DNA from: an uncultured Gemmatimonadota bacterium
GTDB taxonomy: Bacteria > Gemmatimonadota > Gemmatimonadetes > Gemmatimonadales > GWC2-71-9
Length of the DNA stretch: 55,886 nt
Reading direction: 5' to 3'
NCBI GenBank assembly: GCA_946887295.1
Contig: CAMPKP010000006.1
Coordinates: 1-55,886 of the forward strand
The translations under genes and the position numbers were made by a program. This document shows positions 27,396 through 49,826 of the stretch, piece by piece. Position 1 is the first letter of the stretch; the number at the start of each line of letters is the position of its first letter. The notes beneath the pieces are model-generated. The model was not told the DNA's origin. It saw only the letters and a program-made list of their open reading frames with translations, and searched no databases.

Positions 27396-27408
27396 TTGCG
27401 CCTCTCCC

Positions 27409-27445: not shown

Positions 27446-27460
27446 GGCATGGATTGTGCT
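27446..27460 (+). promoter_or_regulatory. Sigma-54-type (-24/-12) promoter of the export operon
   Basis: GGCATGGATTGTGCT has GG and GC dinucleotides exactly 12 bases apart, as in the consensus GGCACG-N4-TTGC. It lies 66 nt before the ATG at 27526 and is one of four near-identical copies in the window. Confidence 0.7.
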
Positions 27461-27525
27461 GAGAATGCGCCGGAATACCCTGATGGGCTTGGCCCGTCAC
27501 CACATTTCTTGCCTCGAAGAGGTCT

Positions 27526-28170
27526 ATGCGCACCCTGTCGGCCGTTGCCCTCCTGGCGCTTGTGGCGTTCTCTGCCCCCGCGTCGGCTCAGGAGTCCCGT
27601 GCTTCCAACGAGTCGGTGCTTTCGCCCGGAGATTCGGTTCGCATCGTGGTGTGGAGAAAACCGGAGTTCAGCGGAGACTTCGTAGTGGCACCCAACGGGA
27701 CCATCACCCACCCGCTGTACCGCTCCGTGACCGTGGGAGGTGTACCGTTCGCCACGGCGGAGGCCAACCTGCGCAGGTTCCTGGCGCGCTTCGAGGAAAA
27801 CCCCGAGTTCGTGATGGAGCCGCTCATTCGGGTGGCGATCTCGGGTGAGGTGGAGAAGCCCCAGGTGTTCGCGCTGCGACCCGAGACGACCATCGCCGAG
27901 GCGATCGCCCGGGCCGGCGGCACCACCGAGTTCGGGGCCCGCAACCGGATCCGGGTGCTCCGCCTCGAGCCCACCGGCCAGCAGGATCAGCTCGTCATCA
28001 ACCTCAGCGACCCCGGTGCCGGGTACGGCAGGATTCCCGTGCGGTCCGGGGACCAGATCATCGTCGACCGCAGGAAGTCCTTCCTGAAGGACGTCCTCCT
28101 GCCGACCCTCGGCGTCATCGGCTCGGTCGCGTCCCTTGGCCTGCTCATAGATCGCGTCAGCAGGAACTAG
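27526..28170 (+). CDS. Wza-like polysaccharide export protein
   Basis: A 214-residue protein. A cleavable signal peptide (ALLALVAFSAPASAQ) precedes the poly-export domain (LSPGDSVRIVVWRKPEFSG and VAPNGTITHPLYRSV) and one SLBB-like domain (VAISGEVEKPQVFALRPETTIAEAI). A hydrophobic helix ends the protein (LLPTLGVIGSVASLGLLID). It is shorter than E. coli Wza and has no lipobox, resembling the small periplasmic export proteins. It should form part of the channel that moves the polysaccharide across the periplasm and outer membrane. The gene is followed after 1 nt by the Wzc-like gene. Transcription probably starts from the -24/-12 element at 27446-27460. Confidence 0.85.
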   Translation: MRTLSAVALLALVAFSAPASAQESRASNESVLSPGDSVRIVVWRKPEFSGDFVVAPNGTITHPLYRSVTVGGVPFATAEANLRRFLARFEENPEFVMEPLIRVAISGEVEKPQVFALRPETTIAEAIARAGGTTEFGARNRIRVLRLEPTGQQDQLVINLSDPGAGYGRIPVRSGDQIIVDRRKSFLKDVLLPTLGVIGSVASLGLLIDRVSRN

Positions 28171-28171
28171 A

Positions 28172-30580
28172 ATGCCAATGCGCCCACCCGTTCCCCACGA
28201 TCGTCAGCTCCCCGCCGCCTTCGAGCCGGCTTTCCGGCCGTTGGAGCCGGTCGAATCGAGCGGGATGGTGACCTTCCGCCAGGCGCTGGCGGTGATTCGC
28301 CGGCGTTTCCAGCTCATCCTCGCCGTGACCGTGTGTGGCGCGGCGCTCGGCGTGTTTCTGGCGTCCCGCGAGCCGACCACCTACCGGGCCAGCGCGATGC
28401 TGCGGCTCGCCGGGGAGCGCCAGACGATCACCGGCGTAGCCGAAGAGGCGGCGCCGAGCCTCGGGCGCACGGCGGACCCGATGCTGTCGATCATCGAGCT
28501 GCTGCGCAGCCGAACCGTGGCAGGCGTGGTAGTGGACAGCCTGGGCCTCCAGCTGGTCAGCCAGACTCCGGAGTTTGTGGTCGAGGACCTCACCGGCGTT
28601 CGGGTCGACCCCCGCGCGGCCGGCGATTCGGTGCAGGTCCTCTTCCTCGAGGACCGGCTCACCGCCCGGCGCGGCCAGCGCACGGTGACCGCTCCCTACG
28701 GGCAGATGGTCAATCTCGGCGTGGTGCAGTTCGCCGTGCGAGCCCGGCCGGCGGTGGAGACGGCCGCGCTCGGGATCCGCTCGCGCGAGGCGGCGATCGA
28801 CGCGATGCTCGCGAATCTTCTGGTGTCGCGCCGGGAGCTGACCGACGTCATCGACGTGGCGTTCATTGCCCAGGATCCCCGGACCGCCCAGCGCGTCGTG
28901 AACAGCACGGTGCACGCCTTCCAGTCGCTCAACGTGCAGTGGGCCCGCGAGCGCTCCCGGCGCAAGGGCGAGTTCCTGGCCGAGCAGGTGGCCCAGACCG
29001 ACAGCATGCTGGAGCGGGCCCAGGCGGCGCTCGCCTCTTTCCGGAGTCGCCAGCAGCTCGCCAGCTCGCAGGACAAGCTCCAGGCCCAGCAGGCGGCCCT
29101 GCTGGCGCTCGACGCCCAGCGCGCGGAGATCGACGCCGACCGGCGCACCTTCGGGACGCTGCTCCAGCGGCTCAAGGGATCCGACGAGACCGCCCGCGAG
29201 GAGGCGCTGCGGGCGCTGGCCACGTCACAGGCGATGTCGGACAACCCCGCGGTCGGTGGGCTCTACCAGCAGCTGCAGAAGTACCAGAGTCGCATCGACT
29301 CGATGACCACCGGCCCCTGGCGCGCCTCGCCGAACAATCCGGACCTGATCCAGCTGAAGGCGCTGGCCAGCTCCACGCAGAACCAGCTGGTGCAGGCCGT
29401 GAGCAGCCAGGTCGGCTCACTGGACTCGCGGGAGGCGGCGCTCGGCGCCCTGCGGGAGCGCGCCGGAGCCTCCATGTCGATCCTGCCCGCCCTGGCGGAA
29501 GAGGAGATGCGCCTGACCCGGCGGGTGGACGCGCTCGCCAACATGTCCGATGACCTCCGCGCCGATTTCCAGCGGGCCCGCATGGCCGAGGAGGTCGAGG
29601 CCGGCGACATCGACGTGGTGGCCCTCGCCCCGTTGCCCTCCACGCCGCTCCTCACCGGCGGCGCGCTGAAGGTCGCCCTGGGGCTCTTCATCGGCCTCGC
29701 GCTCGGCCTGGTCATCGCCTACATCCTCGAGGCGCTCAACACCTCGATCCGGAAGCCCGAGGATCTCGAGGCGGTGCTGCACGTCCCCGGTCTGGCGGTC
29801 ATCCCGCGGATCACGGACGGCTCCCGCAGTGCGCAGTCTCACTTCCGCCGCCTGCTCGGATCGGGCAAGGCCGCCAAGGCGGCCGTGGGGTCGCCGCTCA
29901 CTGGCAACCAGACGTTCTCGATCGGGATCGAGGCGTTCCGGAACCTCCGGACCAGCCTCATCTGGTCCGACGGCGGCGAGGCGCTCCGCACCCTGGTGGT
30001 CACCAGCGCGGCGCCGGGCGAGGGCAAGACCATGACCGCCGCCAACCTGGCGGTCACCCTGGCCTACGATGGCCTGCGGGTGCTCCTGGTCGATTGCGAC
30101 ATTCGCCGGCCGCGGGTCCACGGCCTGTTCCAGCTGCCTCGCGCGCCGGGGCTGATGGAGCTGCTGAGGGCATCCACCGATCCCGACGCGCCGCCGGTCC
30201 AGGCCATCCGGAACACCCCGGTGGCCCGGCTCTCCGTCCTGACCTGCGGCGCGCTGCCGGTCAACGCCTCCAATCTGCTCAGCGGCACCCGGATGCGGGT
30301 GCTGCTGGGAGAGCTGCAGGAGCAGTTCGACATCATCGTGCTCGACACGCCTCCGGTGCTGGCGACGGCCGATGCGAGCATCGTGGCGTCGCTGACCGAC
30401 GGCGTGCTGCTCGTGGTCAGGGCCGGCACCACCGACCGGAACGCCGCCCAGCGAGCCTACCAGCAGCTCGCCAACGTCGGTGCCCGCGTGGTGGGCACCG
30501 TGCTCAACGATCCGGGTGGGGAGGTCGCCAAGGAGGGCGACTACTACTACCCGTACGACTACGCCGCACAGGACCAGTGA
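28172..30580 (+). CDS. Wzc-like polysaccharide co-polymerase with tyrosine autokinase domain
   Basis: An 802-residue inner-membrane protein. A first transmembrane helix lies near 45-65 and a second near 495-520 (LFIGLALGLVIAYILEAL), enclosing a periplasmic Wzz-type domain with long coiled coils. The cytoplasmic BY-kinase has Walker A APGEGKTMTAAN near 612, Walker A' VLLVDCDIRRP near 636 and Walker B IIVLDTPPV near 720. The C-terminus carries a tyrosine cluster (DYYYPYDY), the autophosphorylation site in this family. It controls chain length and export of Wzy-dependent polysaccharides. It forms an operon with the Wza-like gene. Length and order are typical of the fused proteobacterial form. 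Confidence 0.92.
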   Translation: MPMRPPVPHDRQLPAAFEPAFRPLEPVESSGMVTFRQALAVIRRRFQLILAVTVCGAALGVFLASREPTTYRASAMLRLAGERQTITGVAEEAAPSLGRTADPMLSIIELLRSRTVAGVVVDSLGLQLVSQTPEFVVEDLTGVRVDPRAAGDSVQVLFLEDRLTARRGQRTVTAPYGQMVNLGVVQFAVRARPAVETAALGIRSREAAIDAMLANLLVSRRELTDVIDVAFIAQDPRTAQRVVNSTVHAFQSLNVQWARERSRRKGEFLAEQVAQTDSMLERAQAALASFRSRQQLASSQDKLQAQQAALLALDAQRAEIDADRRTFGTLLQRLKGSDETAREEALRALATSQAMSDNPAVGGLYQQLQKYQSRIDSMTTGPWRASPNNPDLIQLKALASSTQNQLVQAVSSQVGSLDSREAALGALRERAGASMSILPALAEEEMRLTRRVDALANMSDDLRADFQRARMAEEVEAGDIDVVALAPLPSTPLLTGGALKVALGLFIGLALGLVIAYILEALNTSIRKPEDLEAVLHVPGLAVIPRITDGSRSAQSHFRRLLGSGKAAKAAVGSPLTGNQTFSIGIEAFRNLRTSLIWSDGGEALRTLVVTSAAPGEGKTMTAANLAVTLAYDGLRVLLVDCDIRRPRVHGLFQLPRAPGLMELLRASTDPDAPPVQAIRNTPVARLSVLTCGALPVNASNLLSGTRMRVLLGELQEQFDIIVLDTPPVLATADASIVASLTDGVLLVVRAGTTDRNAAQRAYQQLANVGARVVGTVLNDPGGEVAKEGDYYYPYDYAAQDQ

Positions 30581-30670
30581 CACCCACCGGTGTACGCTAG
30601 CGCCCGAGCACGCGCTGCAGGCCTTAGCGGAAGTTGATCCTGCGCCCGGCGGCACGGCCGCTTCACGCCG

Positions 30671-30699
30671 TTGTCGCTCGGGTGTGGTACGTGTAGACT
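30671..30699 (+). promoter_or_regulatory. Candidate sigma-70 promoter of the PAPS operon
   Basis: TTGTCG (30671-30676) and TAGACT (30694-30699) are separated by exactly 17 bp, about 60 bp before the cysN start. The sulfation genes thus seem to lack the -24/-12 element that marks the polysaccharide genes. Confidence 0.45.
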
Positions 30700-30759
30700 G
30701 CGCACCCCGCGCCCGGCCCGGCGGGCCGACCGACGCTCACGGAGGGATGCCACACTAGG

Positions 30760-32598
30760 ATGTCGTCTTCCATCGCACCCCACGAACCGCTCGTGGCCGC
30801 CCCGACCGCGGGGACCCAGCGGATGAACATCGTGATCGTCGGCCACGTGGATCATGGCAAGAGCACGGTCATCGGTCGTCTGCTGGCGGATACCCACTCG
30901 CTTCCCGAGGGGAAGCTCGAGCACATCCGGGCCCAGTGCGAGCTGAACTCGAAGCCGTTCGAGTACGCCTTCCTGCTCGACGCTCTCAAGGATGAGCAGG
31001 CCCAGGGCATCACCATCGACGCCGCCCGGGTGTTCTTCAAGAGCGACCTCCGTCACTATCTGATCCTCGACGCGCCGGGGCACATCGAGTTTCTGAAGAA
31101 CATGATCACCGGCGCCGCGCGGGCCGAGGCCGCCCTGCTGGTGATCGACGCCGCCGAAGGCGTCCAGGAGAACAGCCGCCGCCACGGCTACATGGTCTCC
31201 CTGCTCGGTATCAAGCAGCTCGCGGTGGTGGTCAACAAGATGGACCTGGTGGGATGGGACCGCGGCGTCTACGACCGGATCGTGCGCGAGTACGGCGCCT
31301 TCCTCGATCAGGTCGGCATCCGGCCCGCCTGCTTCATCCCGGTCTCGGCGCGCGGCGGCGACAACATCGCCGATCGCGCCGCGCATCTGGCCTGGTACCA
31401 GGGCCCCACGGTGCTGAACGCGCTGGACCAGTTCCACAGCGAGCCGGCGCCGGTGGCGCTGCCGTTCCGCATGCCGGTCCAGGACGTCTACAAGTTCACC
31501 AAGCAGGGAGACGACCGGCGCATCGTCGCGGGGACCATCGACGCCGGCGCGGTGAGCGTCGGCGATACGGTCATCTTCTATCCGTCGGGCAAGAAGAGCC
31601 GGGTGAAGAGCATCGAGGCGTTCAACCGCCCGACGCAGGCCCGCGCCGAGGCGGGATGGTCCGTGGGCTTCACCCTGCAGGAGCAGATCTACATCACCCG
31701 GGGCGAGGTGGCGACCGTGGAGGGCCAGCCGAGGCCCCAGGTCAGCACCCGGCTGCGGGTCAGCCTGTTCTGGCTCGGCAAGGAGGCGATGGTCAAGCGG
31801 AAGGAATATCTGCTCAAGCTCGGGACCACCCGGGTGACGGCTCGGATCGAGGAAGTCCTCCGGGTGATGGACGCCTCGACGCTCGACGCGACCGAGCAGC
31901 GGAGCTCGGTCCAGCGTCACGACGTGGCCGAGTGCGTGCTGCGGCTCGACCGGGCGATCGCGTGCGACGTGGCCGCGGACATCCCCGCCACCAGCCGCTT
32001 CGTGATCGTGGACGACTACGAGATCCGGGGCGGCGGCATCGTCCGGGAGGCGATGACCGACCGGCAGACCGCGGTGCGCGACAGCGTGATGCTCCGGAAC
32101 TACAAGTGGGAGCCGAGCATCATTCAGCCCGAGCACCGGGCGGAGAAGTACAACCAGAAGGCGGCGCTCATCCTGGTCACCGGGGAGCACGAGAGCGACC
32201 GCAAGGGCGTCGCCAAGGCGCTCGAAGGCAAGCTGTTCGACGACGGCAAGGTGGTCTACTTCCTCGGGATCGGGAACGTGCTCTACGGCGTGGACGCCGA
32301 CATCGAGCGGAAGCAGGAGAACCGGCTGGAGCACATGCGCCGTCTCGCGGAGGTCGCGAACCTGATGCTCGACGCCGGCATCATCCTGGTGGTGGCGGCG
32401 GCGGAGCTCACCCAGGACGACCTGGAGATCATCAAGACCGCCGTGCAGCCCGACTGGATCGAGACGATCTGGGCCGGCGACAGCGTCACCACCGACATCG
32501 CCTTCGACCTGCAGTTGCCCGGTGGCGCGGTGCCCGAGGCGGTGGATCGCCTCAAGGCCCACCTCCAGGACAAGGGCGTCATCTTCCGCCCATGGTGA
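30760..32598 (+). CDS. cysN: Sulfate adenylyltransferase GTPase subunit with degenerate APS-kinase-like C-terminus
   Basis: A 612-residue CysN-type GTPase that drives APS formation with CysD. G-motifs are G1 GHVDHGKST at 28-36, G3 DAPGH and G4 NKMD, followed by EF-Tu-like beta-barrel domains. From about residue 462 a CysC-like domain follows, but its P-loop reads [13 protein letters not shown] instead of GLSGSGKST, so kinase activity is probably lost; a complete CysC lies two genes downstream. The ATG at 30760 is preceded by GGAGGG at some distance. It starts the operon cysN-cysQ-cysC-cysD, which should supply PAPS to the sulfotransferases that follow. Confidence 0.9.
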
Positions 32599-33353
32599 CG
32601 AGCCACCTGCGGTCTGCGGTCGTCGACCTCGTGCGCGAGGCCGGCCGGGCCACCATGGTGTATTACGACGGCGCGGTGTCGGCCGACGTTCGCGAGAAGG
32701 ACGATCGCAGCCCGGTCACGCTCGCCGACGAGGTGGCCCACCGCATTCTGCTCGAGGGGCTTCACCGCCTCGACCCGGACACGCCGGTAGTCTCCGAGGA
32801 AGCCGAGGCGGCCGATTTCGAGACCCGCCGGGGATGGCGTCGGTTCTGGCTGGTGGACCCCCTCGACGGCACCAAGGAGTTCATCAAGCGCCGGGCCGAG
32901 TTCACGGTCAACGTGGGCCTGATCCAGGACGGGGAGCCGGTGTTCGGCGTGGTGGAGGCGCCGGCGCTGGACCTGGTGTACTGGGCCGTGAAGGGGGGCG
33001 GCGCCTGGCGGGAGGAGAAGGGCCGCGCCGCCGAGCGGATCTATTCCACGGCTCCGGCTCCGGGCACGCCGCTGACGATCGTGGAGAGCCTCTCCCATCC
33101 CTCGCCCGAGCTCGAGGAGTACCTCCAGACCATTCCGGTGGCCCGGCGGGTCAAGGCCGGCAGCTCCCTCAAGTTCTGCTGGGTCGCCGAAGGGCGCGCC
33201 GACCTGTACCCCCGCCTGGGGCCCACCATGGAGTGGGACGTGGCGGCCGGGGATTGCGTCTACCGGCAGTCGGGGCGGGAGGGTGAGCGCACGTCACCCC
33301 TCACCTACAACAAGCCCGACCTGCGGAACACCAGCTTCGTCATCGGTCTGTGA
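32592..33353 (+). CDS. cysQ: 3'(2'),5'-bisphosphate nucleotidase CysQ
   Basis: A 253-residue lithium-sensitive-type phosphatase of the inositol monophosphatase superfamily. Metal motifs are EEAEA ([10 protein letters not shown]) and [15 protein letters not shown], with WDVAAGDCV near the C-terminus. It hydrolyses PAP, the product left by sulfotransferases, to AMP and so removes product inhibition. The ATG at 32592 overlaps the end of cysN by 7 nt; a GTG at 32595 in GTGA overlap is an alternative. The stop overlaps the cysC start as GTGA. Its presence inside the operon fits heavy sulfotransferase use rather than only cysteine synthesis. Confidence 0.9.
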
Positions 33354-33910
33354 GCGATCGGTCTGTGAGCGCCGTGACCTCGTCGCCCCGGCCGGGAACC
33401 AGGGGCGCGGCGCCCGTGCTATGGTTTACGGGCCTGTCGGGCTCCGGCAAGAGCACCATCGCCGTGAGAGTGCACCAGGAGCTGGTGCGGCGGGGTGTGG
33501 ATGTGGAGTACATCGACGGGGATGCGCTGCGGGAGGTGTTCCCCGGGACCGGCTTCACCCGGGCCGAGCGCGAGGAGCACCTCCGCCGGACCGGGTACAT
33601 GGCGGGCCGCCTGGCGGCTCACGGCGTGACGGTGGTCGCCTCGTTCGTCTCGCCCTACCGCGAGTCGCGGGAGTTCATCCGCAGGCACTGCGGCGACTTC
33701 GTGGAGATCTACGTGGCCACGCCGCTCGAGGAGTGCGAGCGGCGCGACGTCAAGGGACTGTATGCCCGCGCGCGGCGCGGTGAGATCAAGAACTTCACGG
33801 GGATCGACGATCCGTACGAGACCCCCGAGCACCCGGAGCTGACGCTCGACACCCGCGCCCTGAGCGTGGAGCAATGCGTCGCGCTGGTGCTCGAACGGCA
33901 CGGAGGGTGA
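33350..33910 (+). CDS. cysC: Adenylylsulfate kinase CysC
   Basis: A 186-residue APS kinase. The P-loop GLSGSGKST is intact at 28-36; [34 protein letters not shown] and [16 protein letters not shown] are the family motifs for APS binding and the lid. It phosphorylates APS to PAPS, the sulfate donor for all the sulfotransferases in this locus. The start is GTG at 33350, coupled to cysQ by GTGA. Being complete, it explains how the degenerate domain in CysN can be tolerated. Confidence 0.93.
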
Positions 33911-33915
33911 CACCG

Positions 33916-34805
<890 letters not shown>

Positions 34806-34809
<4 letters not shown>

Positions 34810-35699
34810 GCGGCCCCGCCCCGATGCTTCCCACCTTCCTCATCGTTGGAGCGGCCAAGGCGGGGACGACGGCGCTGTACTGGTATCTCGCGGAGCACCC
34901 GGACGTGTTCATGAGCCAGGTCAAGGAGGCGAACTACTTCGCCTACGGCCTGGATGAGCAGGGGCGACTGGTCTACGGAGATCCGGACGTCCACCGCTTC
35001 CCGGTGAAATCACTGGGCGAATACCAGGCGCTCTTCGCCGGGGCGGGCGCGGCCGCCGCGGTCGGCGAGGCCTCTCCGATCTATCTCGAGTGCCCCCAGG
35101 CCCCCGGCCGGATCAAGGAGCTGATCCCCGGGGTACGGATCATCTGCAGCCTGCGCCAGCCGGTCGAGCGCGCCTACTCGGACTACCTGATGTACCTGCG
35201 GCGCCGGGGCCGCCGCTTCGACCCCGCGCGCGAGCTGACCGCCGCGGCCGAGTGGGCCCGGCCGGATTCCCGCTGGATGCAGGTCGGGCGCTACCATGCC
35301 CAGCTGGCGCGCTACTTCGAGGCGTTTCCCAGAGACCGGATCCACGTACAGCTGATCGACGACTTCAAGCCGACCCCACTGGGGGCGGTGCAGGACGTCT
35401 ACCGGTTCCTCGGAATCGATCCCACCTTCGTTCCTGACTTCGATACGCCGCACGCGCCCGGCGGCATGCCGGCGAGCACACTGCTGGAGGGCGTCTTCAC
35501 CAGCGGCACCCTCCTGTCCATGGTCAAGCCCTGGGTGCCGCTGCGAGCGGCCAACTGGATCCGGCGCCTGCGGACCCGCAACATGCGGAGGCCGCCCCCG
35601 CTGCCTCCGGCGCTCCGACGCGAGCTGACCGCGCCATTCCGGGACGACATCGTCCGGACCTCGCAGCTCATCGGCCGCGACCTGAGCCACTGGCTCTAG
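34806..35699 (+). CDS. PAPS-dependent sulfotransferase 1
   Basis: A 297-residue sulfotransferase. The 5'-phosphosulfate loop is [15 protein letters not shown] and the 3'-phosphate motif is [15 protein letters not shown]. It should transfer sulfate from PAPS to a carbohydrate hydroxyl. The start may be GTG at 34806 (GTGA overlap with cysD) or ATG at 34824, six codons later. The C-terminus is RDLSHWL, almost the same as the convergent paralogue at 35696, and the two genes overlap by 4 nt within a long inverted repeat. It is transcribed with the PAPS genes. Confidence 0.88.
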
Positions 35700-35720
35700 G
35701 TCCAGTGACTCAGGTCGCGG
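35675..35720. terminator. Long inverted repeat at convergent sulfotransferase ends
   Basis: Arms 35675-35693 and 35702-35720 are 19 nt each with 18 of 19 positions complementary, around an 8-nt loop that holds both stop codons. The repeat arises because both proteins end in the same RDLSHW residues. Either transcript would form a strong hairpin, so it may act as a bidirectional terminator or 3'-end stabiliser. Confidence 0.6.
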
Positions 35721-36601
35721 CTCAGAATCCTGGACAGCAGGGCCACTTCCTCGCGGAACGTCTCGACCAGCTCGGCCCGAAGTGCCGGCGGGAGCGGCGG
35801 CCGGCGTTCCCGCACCGTGTTCATCGCGACGATCTTCTTCTTCAAGGTGCTGATCCCTTCGGTCCCGACCGTCTGCTTGAGGCTGCGAATCGCCGCGCGC
35901 AACGCCGGGGGCGGCTTCCGGTAGAACCGCCGCAGCCAGGACACCCTCGATCGCTTGTTCTCGTTGATGCGGGGAAACTCTCGGCGGCCGTCGTGGGGAA
36001 TGCCCAGGAAGGCGATCACTTCGTCGTAGACCCGCTGGGGTGACGCGGCGAAGTCGTCGAACAGGAGCAGCTTGACCTGGTCCGCGGGAAAGGCCGACAG
36101 GACCCGCTGTGCCTGGGTCCCGAACCGGCCCACCTCGGCGTACTGGACCAGCAGCGGCGAGCGGATCGCCGGCGGAAGGTCGAGCCCGCGGGCGCGCCGC
36201 TCCTGCAGCCGCCACGCGGTCTCGAAGTCCTCCACGATCTCCTCGGAGACGTGCAGCAGCTGGGAGTGCAGCGAATACACCATGTCCACCGGGTTGCGGA
36301 ACATGGCGATGATCTTCGCGGCCGGATTGAACTCACGGATGGCCGGGATGGCCACGGTCGAGCGCAGGTAGTAGACCGATGCCTCTCCCACCGCCAGGTG
36401 CCGCCCGGTGCTTCCCGCGAAGAGCTGGGCGTAGGCGTCCAGCGTCTTGATCCGGGGATAGGTGCCCAGGTCTCTCGCGAAGAAGTGCGGCTCCTTGAGC
36501 TCCGGCATGAAGACGTGGGGGTGCGGCCGGAGGTACTCGTAGAGGGCCGTGGTGCCGCACTTGGGCGCGCCCACGAGGAAGAAGTTCGGTGTTGCTGCCA
36601 A
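35696..36601 (-). CDS. PAPS-dependent sulfotransferase 2
   Basis: A 301-residue sulfotransferase with VGAPKCGTTALYEYL (phosphosulfate loop) and MFRNPVDMVYSLHSQLL (3'-phosphate motif); EPHFFARDL and VGEASVYYL are typical of the carbohydrate family. I chose TTG at 36601: it has a GGGAG ribosome site about nine bases upstream and gives the normal short N-terminus; the ATG at 36841 would add 80 poor residues and cross an inverted repeat. It is the only sulfotransferase on the minus strand and converges on sulfotransferase 1, which it resembles at the C-terminus. A 9-bp inverted repeat (36650-36673) sits in its leader. Confidence 0.85.
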   Translation of the reverse strand: MAATPNFFLVGAPKCGTTALYEYLRPHPHVFMPELKEPHFFARDLGTYPRIKTLDAYAQLFAGSTGRHLAVGEASVYYLRSTVAIPAIREFNPAAKIIAMFRNPVDMVYSLHSQLLHVSEEIVEDFETAWRLQERRARGLDLPPAIRSPLLVQYAEVGRFGTQAQRVLSAFPADQVKLLLFDDFAASPQRVYDEVIAFLGIPHDGRREFPRINENKRSRVSWLRRFYRKPPPALRAAIRSLKQTVGTEGISTLKKKIVAMNTVRERRPPLPPALRAELVETFREEVALLSRILSRDLSHWT

Positions 36602-36649
36602 GTCGGGTGCTCCCGGGTCGTCCTGTGGGTTGGGGCCAGCGGCAGGATG

Positions 36650-36673
36650 CACTGTAGCGGTGTTGCTACAGTG
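36650..36673. promoter_or_regulatory. 9-bp perfect inverted repeat between divergent sulfotransferases
   Basis: CACTGTAGC and GCTACAGTG flank a 6-nt spacer. The element lies about 50-70 nt upstream of the minus-strand sulfotransferase start. It looks like an operator for a dimeric regulator, or a leader hairpin. Confidence 0.4.
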
Positions 36674-36764
36674 GGCCGGCGAATCTGTTGGGGACGTCGA
36701 TGTCGTTGCCCCGACTGCACATCGGCGGCCGCACGAAACAGGGGTGCCGGTCCCCGAAGGGACG

Positions 36765-36777
36765 GTGGTAGATTGTC
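36765..36777 (+). promoter_or_regulatory. Putative activator site A upstream of sulfotransferase 3
   Basis: GTGGTAGATTGTC matches the site at 27383-27395 at 12 of 13 positions and lies about 60-70 bp upstream of the -24/-12 element. Confidence 0.5.
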
Positions 36778-36802
36778 CCGGGCGGGTTCCACGGTCAAGC
36801 GG

Positions 36803-36818
36803 CCGGCGGAAATTGTCC
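36803..36818 (+). promoter_or_regulatory. Putative activator site B upstream of sulfotransferase 3
   Basis: CCGGCGGAAATTGTCC repeats the AAATTGTC core of site A and resembles site B at 27409-27420. Confidence 0.35.
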
Positions 36819-36836
36819 GGCGGGCCGGCCGTCCGA

Positions 36837-36851
36837 GGCATGGATCGTGCA
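36837..36851 (+). promoter_or_regulatory. Sigma-54-type (-24/-12) promoter of sulfotransferase 3
   Basis: GGCATGGATCGTGCA, with GG and GC 12 bases apart, lies 38 nt before the ATG at 36889. It matches the copies at 27446, 40222 and 49812 (minus). Confidence 0.7.
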
Positions 36852-36888
36852 CCTCCGCGGACGGATTCAGTGGGGCAACTCCTGAACC

Positions 36889-40004: not shown

Positions 40005-40080
40005 TCCGCGCCGACTCCTCCGGCGCCACGGCAGCGGTTCCCATGACTCACGGCGGCGGCGCCCACCCGCTCGACCGCCC

Positions 40081-40093
40081 GTAGTAGATTGCC
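40081..40093 (+). promoter_or_regulatory. Putative activator site A upstream of the flippase
   Basis: GTAGTAGATTGCC matches the GTGGTARATTGYC pattern with one difference. It lies about 130 bp upstream of the -24/-12 element at 40222, still in the range for enhancer-type activation. Confidence 0.4.
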
Positions 40094-40221
40094 CTCCTTG
40101 TGTTTCCCCAACGCCCGGACGCCGACGAACCGAGGGGGCTGGCTGGTTGAGTCCACAAGTGTCATATCTGGAACGGTTTACCTGATGGGTTTCAAGCTGC
40201 CTGCCCGGGGGGATGGGGCAG

Positions 40222-40236
40222 GGCATGGATCGTGCT
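40222..40236 (+). promoter_or_regulatory. Sigma-54-type (-24/-12) promoter of the flippase-polymerase unit
   Basis: GGCATGGATCGTGCT has the required 12-base GG to GC spacing and is one of four near-identical copies. It lies about 100 nt before the chosen flippase start. Confidence 0.7.
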
Positions 40237-40335
40237 CCTCGAGGGCGAGCTCTTTCCTTCACCACCACTCACCCCGATGATCACGGCACTCCCGAGACAC
40301 GACTCAGCCGCGGCATCGGCCGCAGAGTATCACCG

Positions 40336-41928
40336 ATGACTCCGGAGCAGCCGTCCCCGGCCCGGCCGGAGGGGCAGCCGGCGAGAACGCCGCGCGGTCT
40401 GACCAACCGCGCGATCGGCGGCATGTTCTGGACATTCTCCGGCACCGGCGTGCAGGTCGTCGTCCAGCTGCTCGCCATCATGGCGCTGGGACGGCTGCTC
40501 ACCCCGGCCGAATTCGGTCTCATGGGTGCCGCGACCGTCGTCATCGCCTGCTCGCAGATCGTCTCCCAGGTCGGGGTCGGGCCGGCGATCATCCAGCGCC
40601 GCGAGCTGGACGAGATCCACGTCCGGGTCGCCGTCACGCTATCCGCCATCCTTGGGCTCCTGCTCGGCGCGCTCGTGTGGTTCGGGGCCGCCGAGATCGC
40701 CGCGTTCTATCGGATGCCCGAGCTGGAGCCGGTTCTTCGAGCGGTCGCCTTCCTGTTCCCCCTCGACGGGTTGAACACGGTCGCCAAGTCGGTCCTGACC
40801 CGCCAGCTGCGCTTCCGGTTGTACATCGCCCTCGACGTGGCGGCCTACGTCCTTGGCTACGCCCTCGTCGGAGTGGCGCTGGCGTGGCTCGGCTACGGGG
40901 TCTGGGCGCTGGTCGCCGCCAATCTGGCGCAGGTGGGCGTGCGCACGGTCCTCATGTACGGAGCCAGCCGGCACTCGCTCCGGCCGAGCCTGGACCGGCG
41001 CGCCACACGGGACCTGCTCGGCTTCGGCTTCGGACACTCGATGGCGCAGATCGGTACCCTGCTCTCCCAGCAGGGTGACAACCTCGTGGTGGGCCGGTGG
41101 CTCGGCCCCGCCGCTCTGGGCCTCTACGGCCGGGCGTACAACCTGATGGTGATGCCGGCCTCGGCATTCGGCCGGATCGTCAACCGCGTGCTCTTCCCGG
41201 TCATGTCGCAGGTCCAGGACGAGCGTGACCGGCTCGCCAACGCGTACGAGCGCGCGCTCGCGATCGTCGCCTTTGTCGCGCTGCCGCTGAGCACCTTCCT
41301 CTGGGTCGTCGCGCCGGAGTTCATCGCTCTGGTGCTGGGCCCCAGGTGGGGGGGCGTCGTGCTGCCCTTTCGACTGTTCAGCATCAGCCTGCTGTTCCGC
41401 ATGAGCAGCAAGATCAGCGATGCCTGCACCAAGGCGGCCGGCGAGGTCTACATCCGCGCCCTGCTGCAGCACGCCTATGCGGCGATGGTGGTGGTGGGAG
41501 CGATCATCGGGCAGCACTGGGGCGTGGGCGGGGTGGCGGTGGCCGTTTCCGTCGCCATGGGCCTCAACTGGCTCAGTATGGCCTGGCTCAGCCGGTCGGT
41601 GACGGGTCTCTCCTGGCTGCGCTTTGCCCGGGCACAGGGACCCGCGGCGCTGGTCGCCATCGTCGTCGCGGGCGCCGCCGCGGTGGTGGCGCATTGGGCG
41701 CGAGCTGCCCATCTCGGGACCATCCCCGTCCTCACGGCGGCAGGTGTGACGGCGGGAGCCGTGACGGTCATCGCGGCCAGACTGCGACCCGGACTGTTCC
41801 TGGGCTCACACGGACTCTGGGCGGTCGGGCAGGCTCAGCAGTTGCTTCGGCGTGGCGTTCAGCGGAAGGCCCGCGCGAGGGCCGCCCGCGAGGGGCTGGC
41901 TCCCGCGGGCGAGGCGAACTCGAAGTGA
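40336..41928 (+). CDS. Wzx-type polysaccharide flippase (MOP superfamily)
   Basis: A 530-residue membrane protein with about 12-14 predicted helices. The start RAIGGMFWTFSGTGVQVVVQLLAIMALGRLLTPAEFGLMGAA is characteristic of WzxC-like lipid-linked-oligosaccharide flippases, and GRAYNLMVMPASAFGRIVNRVLFPVMSQ is the family's mid-protein signature. A basic, Ala-rich cytoplasmic tail of about 30 residues ends it. It should move the undecaprenyl-linked repeat unit across the inner membrane. I chose ATG at 40336; the frame is open to 40213 but that would contain the promoter. The stop overlaps the next gene as GTGA. Confidence 0.9.
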   Translation: MTPEQPSPARPEGQPARTPRGLTNRAIGGMFWTFSGTGVQVVVQLLAIMALGRLLTPAEFGLMGAATVVIACSQIVSQVGVGPAIIQRRELDEIHVRVAVTLSAILGLLLGALVWFGAAEIAAFYRMPELEPVLRAVAFLFPLDGLNTVAKSVLTRQLRFRLYIALDVAAYVLGYALVGVALAWLGYGVWALVAANLAQVGVRTVLMYGASRHSLRPSLDRRATRDLLGFGFGHSMAQIGTLLSQQGDNLVVGRWLGPAALGLYGRAYNLMVMPASAFGRIVNRVLFPVMSQVQDERDRLANAYERALAIVAFVALPLSTFLWVVAPEFIALVLGPRWGGVVLPFRLFSISLLFRMSSKISDACTKAAGEVYIRALLQHAYAAMVVVGAIIGQHWGVGGVAVAVSVAMGLNWLSMAWLSRSVTGLSWLRFARAQGPAALVAIVVAGAAAVVAHWARAAHLGTIPVLTAAGVTAGAVTVIAARLRPGLFLGSHGLWAVGQAQQLLRRGVQRKARARAAREGLAPAGEANSK

Positions 41929-42761
41929 CGGCGGTTCCGGAGCCCGTGAAGGCGCCGTTGCGCCGGCTGCGGGCCGACTACCGGGCGCTGACCGCTCCCC
42001 TGCGCGGGCTGCCGTCGACCCTGGTGCTCGGAGCGCAGAAGAGCGGTACCACCTCGCTCTTCAATTACCTGGTGCGGCATCCCGACGTGCTGCCGCCGTT
42101 CGGCAAGGAGATCCACTACTTCGACCTGCACTACGAGAAGGGGGTCCACTGGTACCGGGGGCGCTTTCCGTTCCGGCATCGCCTGCGCGACGGGGCGATG
42201 ACGCTCGACGCCTCCCCATACTACCTGCTGCACCCTCGGGCGCCCGAGCGGGCCGCGCAGCTCTTGCCGGAGGCCAGGCTCGTCGCCGTGCTGCGCAATC
42301 CGGTGGACCGGGCCTTCTCCCACTATCAGCACGAGGTCCGGGGCGGGCGGGAGACGCTCCCCTTCGCCGAGGCGATCGAGCGAGAGGCCGAGCGGCTGGC
42401 CGGCGAGGAGGACCGCATTCGCGCCGACGCCGGCTACTACAGCTTCAATCACCACCGATACTCGTACATGCTCCGCGGGCGCTACGTGGAGCAGCTTCGC
42501 CGCTGGACCGAGCACTTTCCGCGCTCGCGCCTGCTGGTCCTCCAGAGCGAGTGGCTGTTCCGCGATCCTGGCGCGGCGGTCGATGCCGTGCAGAAGTTCC
42601 TCGGCCTGCCTCCGCACCGGGACGGAAGCTACAAGACGTTTCTGCAGGGCAGCTACGACCGTCACATGCCGGCCGAGCTGAGGCGAAGGCTGGCGGCGCG
42701 CTTCGAGCCCTGCAACGTCGAGCTCTATCGCTGGCTGGGTGAGGAATTCGACTGGACATGA
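41925..42761 (+). CDS. PAPS-dependent sulfotransferase 5, heparan-sulfate-type
   Basis: A 278-residue sulfotransferase. LVLGAQKSGTTSLFNYL is the phosphosulfate loop; VAVLRNPVDRAFSHYQHE is the 3'-phosphate motif; KEIHYFDLHYEKGVHWYRGRFP and DASPYYLLHPRAPERAAQLLP match the NDST/3-OST-like group that sulfates glycosaminoglycans in animals. Start GTG at 41925 is in GTGA overlap with the flippase stop, so sulfation and export genes are coupled. It probably acts on the polysaccharide repeat unit in the cytoplasm before flipping (inference). Confidence 0.9.
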   Translation: MTAVPEPVKAPLRRLRADYRALTAPLRGLPSTLVLGAQKSGTTSLFNYLVRHPDVLPPFGKEIHYFDLHYEKGVHWYRGRFPFRHRLRDGAMTLDASPYYLLHPRAPERAAQLLPEARLVAVLRNPVDRAFSHYQHEVRGGRETLPFAEAIEREAERLAGEEDRIRADAGYYSFNHHRYSYMLRGRYVEQLRRWTEHFPRSRLLVLQSEWLFRDPGAAVDAVQKFLGLPPHRDGSYKTFLQGSYDRHMPAELRRRLAARFEPCNVELYRWLGEEFDWT

Positions 42762-42777
42762 CGAGGATGGGATCCGC

Positions 42778-44043
42778 ATGACCTCGCTGGCATACATCCC
42801 CCTGTGGATCTTCGTCTTCTCGCTGCCGTGGGAGAGACTCCTGGTCCTCCCCGGCGTCGCGATCATCGCCCGGGTGACCGGCGCGCTGGCGCTGAGCCTC
42901 GCCCTCCTCGCGGTCGTGGTGACCGGACGGTTCCGCCGCTGGCACGTCTTCCACTTCGCGGCGCTGCTGTTCTGGCTCTGGGCGGGACTTACCCTCTTCA
43001 TCTATCACAGCGGCGAGCGGCTGCCCGCCAAGTACTGGACTTACGGCCAGCTGCTCCTGGTCGTCTGGATGATCTGGGAGATCGCTCCGACGGTGCGGCG
43101 GCAGCGCGGCCTGCTCACCGCCTACGTGTTCGGCGCCTACATCGCGGCCTTCGGCACGATCATGCTCTACCGCAGGGAGGCGGGCGCGCTGCGGCGCTTC
43201 GCCGTCGGAGGAGCGGATCCCAACGATCTCGCCATGGTGCTCGCACTGTCGATTCCGATGGCCTGGTACCTGGCGATGACCTACACCCAGCCCCTGCTGA
43301 AGTGGGCCTGCCGCGCCTACCTGCCCATCGGCATCGTCGCCATCGGGCTCACCGGCTCGCGCGGAGGCATGGCGGCTACGACGGTGGGGCTCCTGCTGGT
43401 GCCGCTCTCCATGACCAAGCTGTCGCCGGGGCGGCTGGTGGCCGCCATGGTGATGTTGGCTGTGGCCGGAACCCTTGCGGTGGTGTATGTCCCGGACACG
43501 CTGCTGCAGCGGCTGTCCACCATCGGGACGGAGCTGGAGGGTGGCCGTGTGGGCGGGCGCGGCAAGCTCTGGAAGGCGGGGTTGGAAGCCTTCGTGTACA
43601 AGCCGCTCGCCGGTTTCGGCACCGGCCACTACAAGACCGCGATCACGCCGATTCTCGGCGAAGCGGCCCAGGTGGCGCACAACTCGTACATCTCGGTGCT
43701 CGTCGAGCAGGGCCTCATCGGCTTCCTCCTCTACATGTCGATGCTCGTGACCGTGTTCCGCTCGGTGTTGAAGCCGAGGGGGCTGGAGCGACGATTCGCC
43801 CTGGTGCTCATGATGACGCTTGGCGTGACCATGCTCCCGCTGACGTGGGAGGACCGCCGGGTGGTGTGGTTCGTCATGGCGGTGCTGCTGGGATTCTCCC
43901 AGGCGATCGTCGCCGAGCGGCCCGCGGCGAGGCGGGCACCTCCCCGCGGCGCGCCTCCGATGGTGGTCCGATCTAGGGCGCCACGACAGCTCGAGGGACG
44001 CACCGCCCGCGGCGGGAGCGATCTCCCCGAGGCGGCGGAATGA
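42778..44043 (+). CDS. O-antigen-ligase/Wzy-type polymerase
   Basis: A 421-residue integral membrane protein with about ten helices. The O-antigen ligase domain is shown by GLTGSRGGMAATTVGLLL, the periplasmic-loop segment GRGKLWKAGLEAFVYKPLAGFGTGHY and AQVAHNSYISVLVEQGLIGFLLY. In this setting, with flippase, co-polymerase and export protein, polymerisation of the repeat unit is more likely than ligation to lipid A. I chose the ATG at 42778 (the first helix starts soon after, with gagg upstream); an upstream ATG at 42739 overlaps the sulfotransferase. The C-terminal tail is basic and disordered. The stop overlaps the next gene as ATGA. Confidence 0.85.
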   Translation: MTSLAYIPLWIFVFSLPWERLLVLPGVAIIARVTGALALSLALLAVVVTGRFRRWHVFHFAALLFWLWAGLTLFIYHSGERLPAKYWTYGQLLLVVWMIWEIAPTVRRQRGLLTAYVFGAYIAAFGTIMLYRREAGALRRFAVGGADPNDLAMVLALSIPMAWYLAMTYTQPLLKWACRAYLPIGIVAIGLTGSRGGMAATTVGLLLVPLSMTKLSPGRLVAAMVMLAVAGTLAVVYVPDTLLQRLSTIGTELEGGRVGGRGKLWKAGLEAFVYKPLAGFGTGHYKTAITPILGEAAQVAHNSYISVLVEQGLIGFLLYMSMLVTVFRSVLKPRGLERRFALVLMMTLGVTMLPLTWEDRRVVWFVMAVLLGFSQAIVAERPAARRAPPRGAPPMVVRSRAPRQLEGRTARGGSDLPEAAE

Positions 44044-44861
44044 CGCCCAGGGTGAGCGTGGTCAGCACGGTGTACAACGGCGAGGCCTTCTTCGATCGAG
44101 CGGTCCCTGGCATCCTGACGCAGACCTTCGAGGACTTCGAGTTCATCCTGGTGGACGACGGCTCGAGCGATCGCAGCCTCGAAAAGCTTCGGGAGCTGGC
44201 CGCGAGTGACCGCCGCATCCGGGTGTTCGCGCCCGGGCGTCTGGGCGCTGCCGCCGCCTACAACTACGGTGTGGCCCAGGCCGCGGGGGAGTACGTCGCC
44301 CGCCAGGATTTCGACGACCGCAGCTATCCTGACCGCCTGCGCCACCAGGTGGCGCTGTTGGACGCGCATCCGGAGCTCGGCATCGTGGGCGGATACTACA
44401 TGCTGGTGGACGAGCGCCGGGGTGAGCGCTACGTGCGGATGCCGCCGACCGAGCACGGCGCCATCATCACGGCGATGGCGCGCTACGTTCCCATTGCCCA
44501 CACCGTGGCGACGTTCCGGCGGCGGGCATGGACCGAGGCGGGCGGCTATCCCATCGTCAACAACCTGATCGACCTGCGATTCTACCTGCGGGTGGCCAAG
44601 CTCGGCTGGAAGTTCGCCAATGTCCCCGAGATCGTGGGCGAGCACCACGTGCACGACTCCAGCTGGTTCCATCGCACGCTGAAGTACGCCGAGCGCCAGC
44701 GGGACCTGGCGCGGGTGCAGGCGCAGGTGGTCCGCGAGCTGGGACTCCCGCGCTGGATGTACCTGTACTCCCTGGGCCGTCACGCGTACGCCCACATCCC
44801 CCCTGGTCTCAAGCGCATGGTGCGCCGCGGGGTCGTCGGCTCGCAGGAACGGGATGTATGA
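44040..44861 (+). CDS. Glycosyltransferase family 2
   Basis: A 273-residue GT-A transferase. VSVVSTVYNGEAFFDRAV starts the nucleotide-binding fold; ILVDDGSSD holds the first aspartates and ARQDFDDRSYPDRL is the DXD-like metal site, read as DFDD. It should use a UDP- or GDP-sugar at the cytoplasmic face of the membrane. Start ATG at 44040 overlaps the polymerase stop and its own stop overlaps the next start, both as ATGA, so the three genes are a coupled block. Confidence 0.9.
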   Translation: MTPRVSVVSTVYNGEAFFDRAVPGILTQTFEDFEFILVDDGSSDRSLEKLRELAASDRRIRVFAPGRLGAAAAYNYGVAQAAGEYVARQDFDDRSYPDRLRHQVALLDAHPELGIVGGYYMLVDERRGERYVRMPPTEHGAIITAMARYVPIAHTVATFRRRAWTEAGGYPIVNNLIDLRFYLRVAKLGWKFANVPEIVGEHHVHDSSWFHRTLKYAERQRDLARVQAQVVRELGLPRWMYLYSLGRHAYAHIPPGLKRMVRRGVVGSQERDV

Positions 44862-46003
44862 GGGTCTGCTTTCTCTCCACCAGCATGGGCATGGGCGGAG
44901 CGGACAGCCAGCTGCTCTCCGCCGCGCAGGAGCTGCGCTCCCGGGGCCACGAGGTGCTCATCGTCTCGCTCACGCCGCTCGGCCCGATGGGCCTCGAGGC
45001 GCGAAGCGCCGGCATAGCCACGGAGTCGCTGGAGATGCGCCGTGGCCTGCCGGACCCACGGGGACTGTGGCGCCTGGTGCGCCTGGTGCGGGCGTGGCGC
45101 CCCGACGTGCTGCACAGCCACATGGTTCACGCCAATCTGATGGCGCGAGTGCTCCGGCTCATCGCTCCGGTCCCGGCGGTGGTCTCGACCATTCACAACA
45201 TCTACGAGGGCGGCCGCATCCGGATGGCGGCCTACCGGCTCACCAATTCGCTGGTCGACCGGATGACGATCGTGAGCCAGGCCGCTTTCGACCGCTTCGT
45301 GACGGAAGGCATCGTCCCCAGGGAGCTTCTCCGCGTGGTGCCCAACGGCGTGGACACCGATCGATTCCGGAACATCCCTGCCGGCGCGCGCGAGTCGGTG
45401 AGAGGATCGCTTGGTCTGGGGGGGGAGTTCGCGTGGCTGGCGGTCGGCCGCTTCGAGGTGGCCAAGGACTATCCCAACATGCTGCGCGCCTTCGCGAAGG
45501 TTCGCGAGCAGCAGCCGGAGGCCGTGCTGCTGCTGGTGGGTCGCGGATCGCTCCAGGAGGAGACGGAGACGCTGGTGCGCGACCTTGGGATCGCCGGCGG
45601 GGTGCGCTTCCTGGGAGTCCGCAGCGACGTCGCGGAGGTCATGAGCGCCGCCGATGGCTACGTGATGTCGTCCGCCTGGGAAGGCATGCCCATGGTGCTG
45701 CTCGAGGCCGCGGCGGCGGGGCTTCCCATCGTTGCGACCAGGGTCGGCGGCAACCACGAGGTCATCCGGGAGGAGGAGAGCGGCTTCCTGGTGGCGCCCC
45801 GTGATCCCGAGGCGCTCGGCCTGGCGATGCTGAGGTTGGGCGGCCTGCCCGAGGCGGCGCGGCGCGCGATGGGCCAGCGGGGGCGCGAGCACATCCGGGC
45901 TCATTATGACCTCGGCCGGGTGGCCGAGCGCTGGGAGGACCTGTACCGCGAGGTCCTCTCGCAGAAGGGCCTGGCCCTCGCCCCGGAGCTACCGCGTTGC
46001 TGA
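44858..46003 (+). CDS. Glycosyltransferase family 4
   Basis: A 381-residue GT-B transferase with STSMGMGGADSQLLSAAQEL at the N-terminus, VPNGVDTDRFRNIPAG at the domain junction and SSAWEGMPMVLLEAAAAGLPIVATRVGGN as the EX7E donor site. By eye it resembles the WcaL/Wcl group of repeat-unit transferases. Coupled to the GT2 gene by ATGA. It ends the plus-strand unit and its last 15 nt overlap the convergent membrane mannosyltransferase gene. Confidence 0.88.
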   Translation: MRVCFLSTSMGMGGADSQLLSAAQELRSRGHEVLIVSLTPLGPMGLEARSAGIATESLEMRRGLPDPRGLWRLVRLVRAWRPDVLHSHMVHANLMARVLRLIAPVPAVVSTIHNIYEGGRIRMAAYRLTNSLVDRMTIVSQAAFDRFVTEGIVPRELLRVVPNGVDTDRFRNIPAGARESVRGSLGLGGEFAWLAVGRFEVAKDYPNMLRAFAKVREQQPEAVLLLVGRGSLQEETETLVRDLGIAGGVRFLGVRSDVAEVMSAADGYVMSSAWEGMPMVLLEAAAAGLPIVATRVGGNHEVIREEESGFLVAPRDPEALGLAMLRLGGLPEAARRAMGQRGREHIRAHYDLGRVAERWEDLYREVLSQKGLALAPELPRC

Positions 46004-47749: not shown

Positions 47750-47927
47750 CAGCGTACCCCGTAACTCACCATCACATCACTGGCTCCGGCGGTAACCCCG
47801 CCTGTGTCCGTTGCGCCAGGACTCATCTACGATGAGCCGCCGCTCTGGCCGTGCCGAGCGATGGCCCCTCGCCTGCCGCAATCAGTGTGTCCCCTCACGC
47901 CGTTGTTACGGAGAGGAAAATCCTCGT

Positions 47928-48911
47928 ATGGCCTACAGCTTCAAATTGTCCCGCAGGATTGCGCGCCTCCGAGCCCCCGCCTGTGCCGCTCTCATTGCAG
48001 CTCTCGCCGCGTGTGACAGCTCCGAGTCGCTCGACCCCAACAGCGGGATTATCCCGGACGCCGCCGATCAGAGCGGGATCACCGAGGTAACGGTCGAGGA
48101 TGCGGTCGACGCAGCGGCGGTCGGTGAGCCTACGCTGGCCTCGATCTCGTTTGCGGGAGGCATTCCCATCGGCATGGCGGCACAGCCGCTCAGCCTGTTC
48201 GGCTCGCGGTTCAACGGCGCCAAGCTCACGATCGCGCCGGGCCAGCTCATGAGCCAGCTGTCCTCCGTCAAGAACCGCGGCGGCAGGATCGTGCTCATGA
48301 TGGCCGGCAACCCGCGGCACTACAAGACCGACGGCCACTTCGACCTGAACAAGTGGAAGAACCGGGTCGACCAGTTCAAGGGCGTCAGGTTCGACTCGTA
48401 TGTCAAGGACGGCACCATCATCGGGCACTACCTGCTGGACGAGCCGAACGACCCGCGCAACTGGAACGGAAAGCCGGTCTCGCCCTCCACGCTCGAGGAG
48501 ATGGCCAGGTACAGCAAGCAGATCTGGCCCGACCTTCCCACCATCGTCCGCGTGGAACCCAGCTATCTCAGCAGCAGCCACAGGTACCTCGACGCCGCCT
48601 GGGCGCAGTACCTCTGGCGCCGCGGCAACGTCAACGAATACATCCGGGAGAACGTCGCGGCGGCCCAGAAGCGGGGGCTCGGTCTGGTCGTCGGGCTCAA
48701 CGTCCTCCACGGCGGCAACCCGAACGGCACCAAGATGAGCCCGAGCGAGGTGGAGTCCTGGGGCTCGGCGATGCTGAGCAGCACCTACCCCTGCGCCTTC
48801 ATCATGTGGCAGCACAACTCCACCTACCTGTCGACCAGCGGGATCGGCAGCGCGATGGAGGCCCTGCGCCGCAAGGCGGAGAGCCGGAGCTCGAGGAGCT
48901 GCCGCGGCTGA
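47928..48911 (+). CDS. Secreted lipoprotein with barrel-like domain, paralogue of 25305
   Basis: A 327-residue protein. The signal peptide ends in LAAC (about residues 26-29), so it should be a lipoprotein. After a 40-residue acidic linker the domain starts at GIPIGMAAQP and shares blocks with the C-terminal domain of the protein at 25305: FDLNKWKNR, DGTIIGHYLLDEP, LNVLHGG and MSPSEVESWG, with a similar Arg/Ser-rich CRG ending. It lacks the Ig-like repeats. DEP may carry a catalytic glutamate; a second catalytic acid could not be fixed (RVEPSY is one candidate). Start ATG at 47928 has GGAGAGG upstream. A perfect hairpin terminator follows. Confidence 0.75.
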   Translation: MAYSFKLSRRIARLRAPACAALIAALAACDSSESLDPNSGIIPDAADQSGITEVTVEDAVDAAAVGEPTLASISFAGGIPIGMAAQPLSLFGSRFNGAKLTIAPGQLMSQLSSVKNRGGRIVLMMAGNPRHYKTDGHFDLNKWKNRVDQFKGVRFDSYVKDGTIIGHYLLDEPNDPRNWNGKPVSPSTLEEMARYSKQIWPDLPTIVRVEPSYLSSSHRYLDAAWAQYLWRRGNVNEYIRENVAAAQKRGLGLVVGLNVLHGGNPNGTKMSPSEVESWGSAMLSSTYPCAFIMWQHNSTYLSTSGIGSAMEALRRKAESRSSRSCRG

Positions 48912-48994: not shown

Positions 48995-49000
48995 TGCCGC

Positions 49001-49747
49001 TCACCAGCCGCCGCGGCGGAACAGAATGACGGGAATGGTCCGAAGCATGATGCGGAGGTCTTCCCAGAGGCTCTGGCGCCGGATGTACTCCAGGTCGTAG
49101 CGGACCTTGGTCCGCACGTCGTCGAGCGAGCGATCGTAGTGGTGGTTGATCTGGGCCAGCCCGGTGATCCCCGGCTTGGCCCGCTGGCGCAGCGGATACT
49201 CCGCGATGTGGCCCCGCAGCTCGGCGAAGATCGTGGGGCGCTCGGGCCGCGGGCCCACGATGTTCATCTCGCCCCGCATCACGTTGAGCAGCTGGGGGAT
49301 CTCGTCCAGCCGGTACTGGCGCAGGAAGCGCCCCACCGGGGTGATGCGGGGATCGTCCTGGGTGGCCCAGACCGCGCCGGTGCCGCTCTCGGCATCCACC
49401 CGCATCGTGCGGAACTTGTAGATGGTGAAGAGCCGGCCACCGTGGTCGAGGGTGCGCCGGTGGTTCCCGGCCTCGGCGCCGGGCGTGCGCCGGTCGAGCC
49501 CGACCCGCTCCTGGGTGTAGAGCACCGGGCCGCGCGAGGACAGCTTGACGGCCACGGCGATGAGAAGCAGGACGGGAAGCAGCGCGACCAGCGCGAGGAG
49601 CGCGAGCACGAAGTTGACCCAACGGGTCACCCGTGCGCCCACCGCGCTCCGGGAAGCGTCCGAGACGACCTCTCGATCCCTCTCGAGCGTCGCGAAAGTC
49701 TGCGGCGAAGATCCAACCCGCTCGACCAGGGCTTCCATCCAGCGCAT
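49001..49747 (-). CDS. Priming sugar-phosphate transferase (polyprenyl glycosylphosphotransferase)
   Basis: A 248-residue monotopic enzyme of the bacterial sugar transferase family. One hydrophobic helix (NFVLALLALVALLPVLLLIA) precedes the catalytic core: YKFRTMRVDAE, the conserved DE pair in YRLDEIPQLLNVMRGEM, IVGPRPERP and KPGITGLAQIN. It transfers a sugar-1-phosphate to undecaprenyl phosphate and so starts the repeat unit. I chose ATG at 49747 because the longer open frame (to 49852) contains the -24/-12 promoter at 49812-49826; a GTG at 49750 is also possible. An insert of about 15 residues (TPGAEAGNHRR) splits the region before KFRTM. Confidence 0.9.
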   Translation of the reverse strand: MRWMEALVERVGSSPQTFATLERDREVVSDASRSAVGARVTRWVNFVLALLALVALLPVLLLIAVAVKLSSRGPVLYTQERVGLDRRTPGAEAGNHRRTLDHGGRLFTIYKFRTMRVDAESGTGAVWATQDDPRITPVGRFLRQYRLDEIPQLLNVMRGEMNIVGPRPERPTIFAELRGHIAEYPLRQRAKPGITGLAQINHHYDRSLDDVRTKVRYDLEYIRRQSLWEDLRIMLRTIPVILFRRGGW

Positions 49748-49811
49748 CACGTAGATCGTCCGATTCCTGAGCCAGGGTGAAGGGCGGGAGCGTGCGCGGA
49801 ACCGCCTTTTT

Positions 49812-49826
49812 CGCACGATCCATGCC
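49812..49826 (-). promoter_or_regulatory. Sigma-54-type (-24/-12) promoter of the priming transferase
   Basis: On the minus strand the element reads GGCATGGATCGTGCG, with GG and GC 12 bases apart. It lies about 65 nt upstream of the ATG at 49747 and matches the three plus-strand copies. Confidence 0.7.

Follow-up and report, generated by a model that had tools for sequence, protein, structure and literature searches.

Probable sigma-54 promoters before four polysaccharide gene units of a Gemmatimonadales bacterium, three of which carry a second upstream element

Sigma-54 has been proposed by Francke and colleagues (2011) to govern the bacterial exterior, and their survey, which includes Gemmatimonas, predicts such promoters close to genes for exopolysaccharide and for the envelope in many phyla (PMC3162934). 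A composite layout was reported by Haft and colleagues (2006), who found proteobacterial PEP-CTERM genes, alongside PrsK/PrsR, to be preceded by an upstream motif that a spacer of 32-92 nt separates from a sigma-54 motif (PMC1569441). For one gene of this kind, pepA of Aquincola tertiaricarbonis, a -24/-12 start (TGGCAC, CTGCTT) has been mapped, which is rpoN1-dependent and connected with floc formation (PMC9850573). The Gemmatimonadales locus reported here resembles the PEP-CTERM/EpsH systems in having an upstream motif, a spacer and a -24(GG)/-12(GC) motif, repeated before exopolysaccharide-linked genes; however, the controlled genes make polysaccharide here and encode PEP-CTERM proteins there, and motif 1 of those systems, compared by its ending, ends in TTTACA as against GTRGTARATTGYC in our locus (PMC1569441). 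With pepA it shares a -24/-12 element upstream of the gene, but pepA is a single proteobacterial PEP-CTERM gene with experimental proof (PMC9850573), whereas the promoters predicted here precede several biosynthesis units. The parts of the Francke survey available to us describe no such Gemmatimonadota regulon or tandem layout (PMC3162934). Among the top-ranked results of our literature searches there was neither an earlier account of a polysaccharide regulon under sigma-54 in Gemmatimonadota nor any promoter study in that phylum.

We analyzed a stretch of 55,886 bases, called the window here, with a G+C content of 69%. When its sugar transferase is compared with the genome collection, the best matches come from metagenome genomes of Gemmatimonadales, the top one being 84% identical (L001, in G001), and the gene order from 25548 to 42761 is preserved in a 16-kb stretch of G001 (L086). 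Four gene units are at issue. Unit 1 encodes a Poly_export/SLBB polysaccharide export protein (27526-28170, plus strand, assigned by Pfam) and a Wzz-type chain-length protein with a tyrosine autokinase domain (28172-30580, plus strand, start uncertain). Unit 2 (36889-40004, plus strand, assigned by Pfam) comprises a sulfotransferase, a glycosyltransferase and another sulfotransferase, and unit 3 (40336-46003, plus strand) a flippase (Polysacc_synt_3), a sulfotransferase, a Wzy_C ligase-type protein and two glycosyltransferases. Unit 4 is a priming sugar transferase (Bac_transf) on the minus strand (49001-49747). For the flippase, the start at 40336 is the likelier one, because the longest open reading frame, with its start at 40213 or 40225, would begin ahead of or within the third of the promoter sites described below. 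From this gene content we infer that the product of the four units is likely a sulfated extracellular polysaccharide. Five sulfotransferase-family genes (34806, 35696, 36889, 39042 and 41925) surround one sulfate-activation operon (window 34806-42761). The proteins encoded at 25305-27182 and 47811-48911 both lack a Pfam match and seem distantly related, since both match the same places in relatives.

The initial annotation of this DNA proposed that four near-identical sigma-54-type promoters define one polysaccharide regulon. Such copies are indeed present before the polysaccharide units: GGCATGGATYGTGC has exactly four matches in the window, all exact, against 0.00 expected from 100 shuffles; three copies are identical to one another. 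Site 1, GGCATGGATTGTGC, lies at 27446-27459 on the plus strand (predicted start near 27471). Sites 2 and 3, both GGCATGGATCGTGC, lie on the plus strand at 36837-36850 and 40222-40235, with predicted starts near 36862 and 40247, and site 4, again GGCATGGATCGTGC, occupies 49813-49826 on the minus strand (predicted start near 49801); the first three positions agree with those annotated, and for the fourth copy 49813 replaces the 49812 given there. The leader, counted between the final C of each site and the probable start codon, is 66 bases at site 1 (27526), 38 or 65 at site 2 (36889 or 36916), 100 at site 3 (40336) and 65 at site 4 (49747), and the resulting range of 38-100 nt agrees with the 35-105 nt given originally. 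The GG-to-GC distance of 12 bases, in GGCAY-N6-TGC, holds at all four sites and is that of the sigma-54 consensus, as had been claimed. A looser search with GGCAYN6TGC adds one window match (21-34, minus strand), and its total of 5 does not exceed the chance level (shuffle mean 6.3). A chance origin of the four sites was rejected on the expectation of 0.00 for the exact word and on the fact that GGCAYGN5TGC without mismatch occurs in the 55,886 bases at these four sites and nowhere else.

We scanned the upstream regions of export-gene and sulfotransferase orthologs in relatives, the export ones being chosen by protein similarity alone and not by the motif. GGCAYN6TGC stands within 250 bp before 10 of 13 export-gene orthologs (shuffle probability 0.008-0.03 per region), compared with 1 of 13 for the reverse-strand control, and it is absent from the three orthologs of lowest identity (54, 46 and 43%). 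It also stands before seven of eight sulfotransferase orthologs; some of these were on contigs picked via the motif, and the site is found at all three loci chosen without it (L114, L116 and L118). Sites occurred less often at the other units. Before the sugar transferase, a site was found at 5 of 10 loci examined (13 were returned by the search, and one lacked upstream sequence). Among 15 flippase loci, one has a site within the searched range and a second (G048) has it just outside; the place in G001 that is orthologous to site 3 reads GGCATGGAACCTGC, and in at least three relatives (L076, L078 and L083) the flippase lies downstream of a site-bearing sulfotransferase.

The promoters were aligned in 31 rows, of which the sugar transferase rows are the window plus the five relatives with a site and the flippase rows are the window plus G001 out of the 15 loci. 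Scoring the best match over 14 positions of equal weight and counting those with up to three mismatches, we obtained 27 sites, the other four rows being without one. The 24 mismatches are confined to 11 sites and all fall at positions 5-11; GGCA and TGC are invariant in all 27, and position 5 varies only from T to C. The base at -15 is G or C; the TTGC of the sigma-54 consensus usually has T at this position. A search of the relatives' loci from L014 upward with the canonical TGGCAYRN4TTGCW returned one site. The initial annotation had also held that the central bases, as a rule free, are conserved among the copies. This is so among near relatives, which keep the spacer GGATYG, but more distant orthologs have drifted to GTTTAG, ACTTCG or AAATTG, and we read spacer identity as reflecting near kinship and not a universal additional signal.

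Across the 288 genomes of the order, the exact 13-base core has 45 matches in 34 genomes, and the reversed pattern has 6. Surroundings were inspected for 41 of the 45: 16 matches, in 8 genomes, precede homologs of these polysaccharide genes, but the other 25 do not, and these are probably chance occurrences for the most part. The idea of one polysaccharide regulon is supported by the recurrence of the site before the same units in a clade of 8 genomes.

The sigma factor and its activators were sought in the relatives. rpoN is present in all four relatives tested, with an intact RpoN box (ARRTVAKYRD), and each of 10 relatives has 7-13 NtrC-family matches; PrsR (TIGR02915) did not pass its cut-off in any of 10 relatives. 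No activator site common to the promoters was found, nor an inverted repeat common to the sites. At L003:1161-6564 (G001), a second EPS sugar transferase is flanked by genes for a sigma-54 activator of NtrC type (L003:2330-3748), a histidine kinase and a GGDEF response regulator, and in G002, G050 and G051 as well a sugar transferase match has a TIGR02915-type match about 3 kb away or nearer; this NtrC-type protein is a candidate activator of the regulon. Because they have the right spacing, stand before orthologous genes and combine invariant -24/-12 elements with a drifting spacer, the sites behave as sigma-54 promoters, and with rpoN and NtrC-type activators in the relatives their annotation as such is well founded. 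They are very probably used by sigma-54, and we infer co-regulation of the four units.

Units 1-3 also carry a second upstream element, GTRGTARATTGYC, that the initial annotation had missed. Its distance from the sigma-54-type site is 63 bp in unit 1, 72 bp in unit 2 and 141 bp in unit 3. In unit 1 the element (27364-27395, plus strand) has the form GTGAAC-N17-TAAATT, its TAAATT lying within GTGGTAAATTGTC (27383-27395); in unit 2 (36744-36777, plus strand) it has the form GTGCCG-N19-TAGATT, its TAGATT lying within GTGGTAGATTGTC (36765-36777); and in unit 3 it reads GTAGTAGATTGCC (40081-40093, plus strand), where an NTG hexamer at 17-19 bp is missing. The window holds only these three and an inverted copy when one mismatch is allowed, against 0.05 expected. 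That inverted copy, with one mismatch at 49936-49948 (plus strand), 122 bp upstream of site 4, is doubtful: inverted copies at up to two mismatches occur in three of six aligned rows of the sugar transferase group, and the place has become an inverted repeat in G050, so we do not treat it as established. Two other features were seen in the same intergenic regions. GGTCAAGCG, at 36793-36801 between the unit 2 distal element and the sigma-54 site, recurs in 7 of the 31 clade promoters if one mismatch is tolerated, mostly ahead of sulfotransferase genes. Downstream of the gene that ends at 27182 and before the unit 1 distal element, two 19-bp arms pair perfectly around a loop of one base (27208-27246), and inverted repeats with arms of at least 8 bp are found within 350 bp upstream in seven of eight export-gene promoters (window included); the window copy could be a terminator or an insulator, and no T-run follows it.

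The pattern GTRGTARATTGYC was found by eye and written down after sites 1-3 had been seen, and the relatives are therefore its fairer test. In eight relatives it has seven exact matches, six of them within the polysaccharide cluster. The seventh, L100:1501-1520 in G002, reads GTAGTAGATTGTC and lies six bases ahead of a MatE-family start codon, as though this gene were leaderless. With the sugar transferase group left out, 18 of 21 aligned promoters have the distal element at up to two mismatches, 46-141 bp upstream. An NTG hexamer, noticed before it was tested, stands 17-19 bp before TARATT in 18 of 20 distal copies (inverted sugar transferase copies left out), where shuffling gives a mean of 3.2 and never as many in 2000 trials; it is GTG in 15 copies, mostly GTGMMC-like, and mostly just the TG of the usual TTG is kept. 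The spacing is that of the clade. Across 128 upstream regions, most of them from this clade, 17 is the favored spacing between TTG and TAnnnT (10 of 76, other spacings having at most 2), and the 10 distinct TTG-N17-TAnnnT sites are of the TTGCCS-N17-TAnnTT or TAnnCT type; the antisense strand of the same regions shows a 17-bp peak too (7 of 70), which is expected where the neighboring genes diverge, and TAnnnT itself is about as frequent on the antisense strand (79) as on the sense strand (84). In 11 relatives searched genome-wide, GTGMMC-N16-19-RTARATTG has nine matches, eight of which precede these polysaccharide genes; the ninth is antisense within a long open reading frame, which we take to be SAM-synthetase-like.

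Since an NTG lies at promoter spacing and the two-part pattern is found nearly always before these genes, we regard the distal element as probably a sigma-70-class promoter of unusually uniform sequence, arranged in tandem with the sigma-54 one. Our first reading was another, and we keep it as a rival that we hold possible though clearly less probable: the sigma-54 promoters are real, and GTRGTARATTGYC is the enhancer site of a dedicated activator, the role proposed for motif 1 in the PEP-CTERM system. The variable distance to the -24 box, the near-exclusivity of GTRGTARATTGYC to these promoters, the inverted copy close to site 4 and the similar layout in Haft et al. (PMC1569441) all speak for such a site. 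It was the NTG found ahead of TARATT, at the -35/-10 spacing of this clade, that weakened this reading; in addition, GTRGTARATTGYC does not show dyad symmetry, the exact copy in G002 sits before its MatE gene like the -10 box of a leaderless gene, and the supporting inverted copy turns into an inverted repeat in G050.

Two further alternatives concern the sigma-54-type sites themselves. The 14-base word might serve an ordinary dimeric regulator as its operator (GCAYG-N3-CRTGC) and be no promoter at all, a reading encouraged by the partly palindromic inner word and by the invariance of both GCA and TGC, but one that we consider unlikely: position 1 is G in all 27 aligned sites while its mirror, position 15, is variable, position 11 is G or C and thus not the partner of position 5, and the inner arms are lost in variants. 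Because a dimer operator would constrain both ends alike, this asymmetry favors a -24/-12 promoter over a dyad. That the copies are recent and possibly non-functional duplicates of one segment, as the identity of three of them might suggest, is highly improbable, given flanking sequence that differs on both sides and retention of the site before orthologs just 58-86% identical in protein.

Among the units with sigma-54-type promoters lies a sulfate-activation operon (30760-35699, plus strand) that encodes a CysN-like protein with an APS-kinase-like tail, an inositol-phosphatase family protein, an APS kinase, a CysD-like protein and a sulfotransferase. The initial annotation had assigned this PAPS operon a sigma-70-like promoter instead. 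TTGTCG-N17-TAGACT is present at 30671-30699 (plus strand), but our strict promoter scan did not return it, and of four relatives' PAPS operons two have a counterpart (L073 and L086) and two do not (L070 and L079). The sulfate-donor operon would be driven from its own sigma-70-like promoter, separately from the sigma-54 units.

In the explanation that we find best, and hold with considerable confidence as a whole, the four sites would be the -24/-12 elements of sigma-54 promoters, from which RpoN-RNA polymerase would start about 12 bases downstream, only when driven by an NtrC-type activator; the four units would be turned on together, leading to a sulfated extracellular polysaccharide, with the sulfate-donor operon under separate control; and units 1-3 would each combine a distal sigma-70-class promoter with a proximal, inducible sigma-54 promoter in tandem. 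A bolder generalization, which we offer only tentatively, is that this Gemmatimonadales clade has a tandem switch per unit, in which a near-regulon-exclusive GTGMMC-N17-19-TARATTGYC element is paired with a sigma-54 promoter, so that two sigma factors would serve one capsule.

The sigma-54 polysaccharide regulon appears to be clade-specific, and the tandem layout is its less expected part. It agrees with the proposal in the literature that the cell exterior is under sigma-54 control and offers a concrete predicted sigma-54 regulon in a little-studied bacterium, linking this sigma factor to genes that synthesize an exopolysaccharide, probably a sulfated one. With the two motifs as a pair, further members of the regulon and its activator could be sought. 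If the tandem switch is true, the distal promoter would perhaps be recognized by a sigma factor of its own, or else by sigma-70 acting with a special partner.
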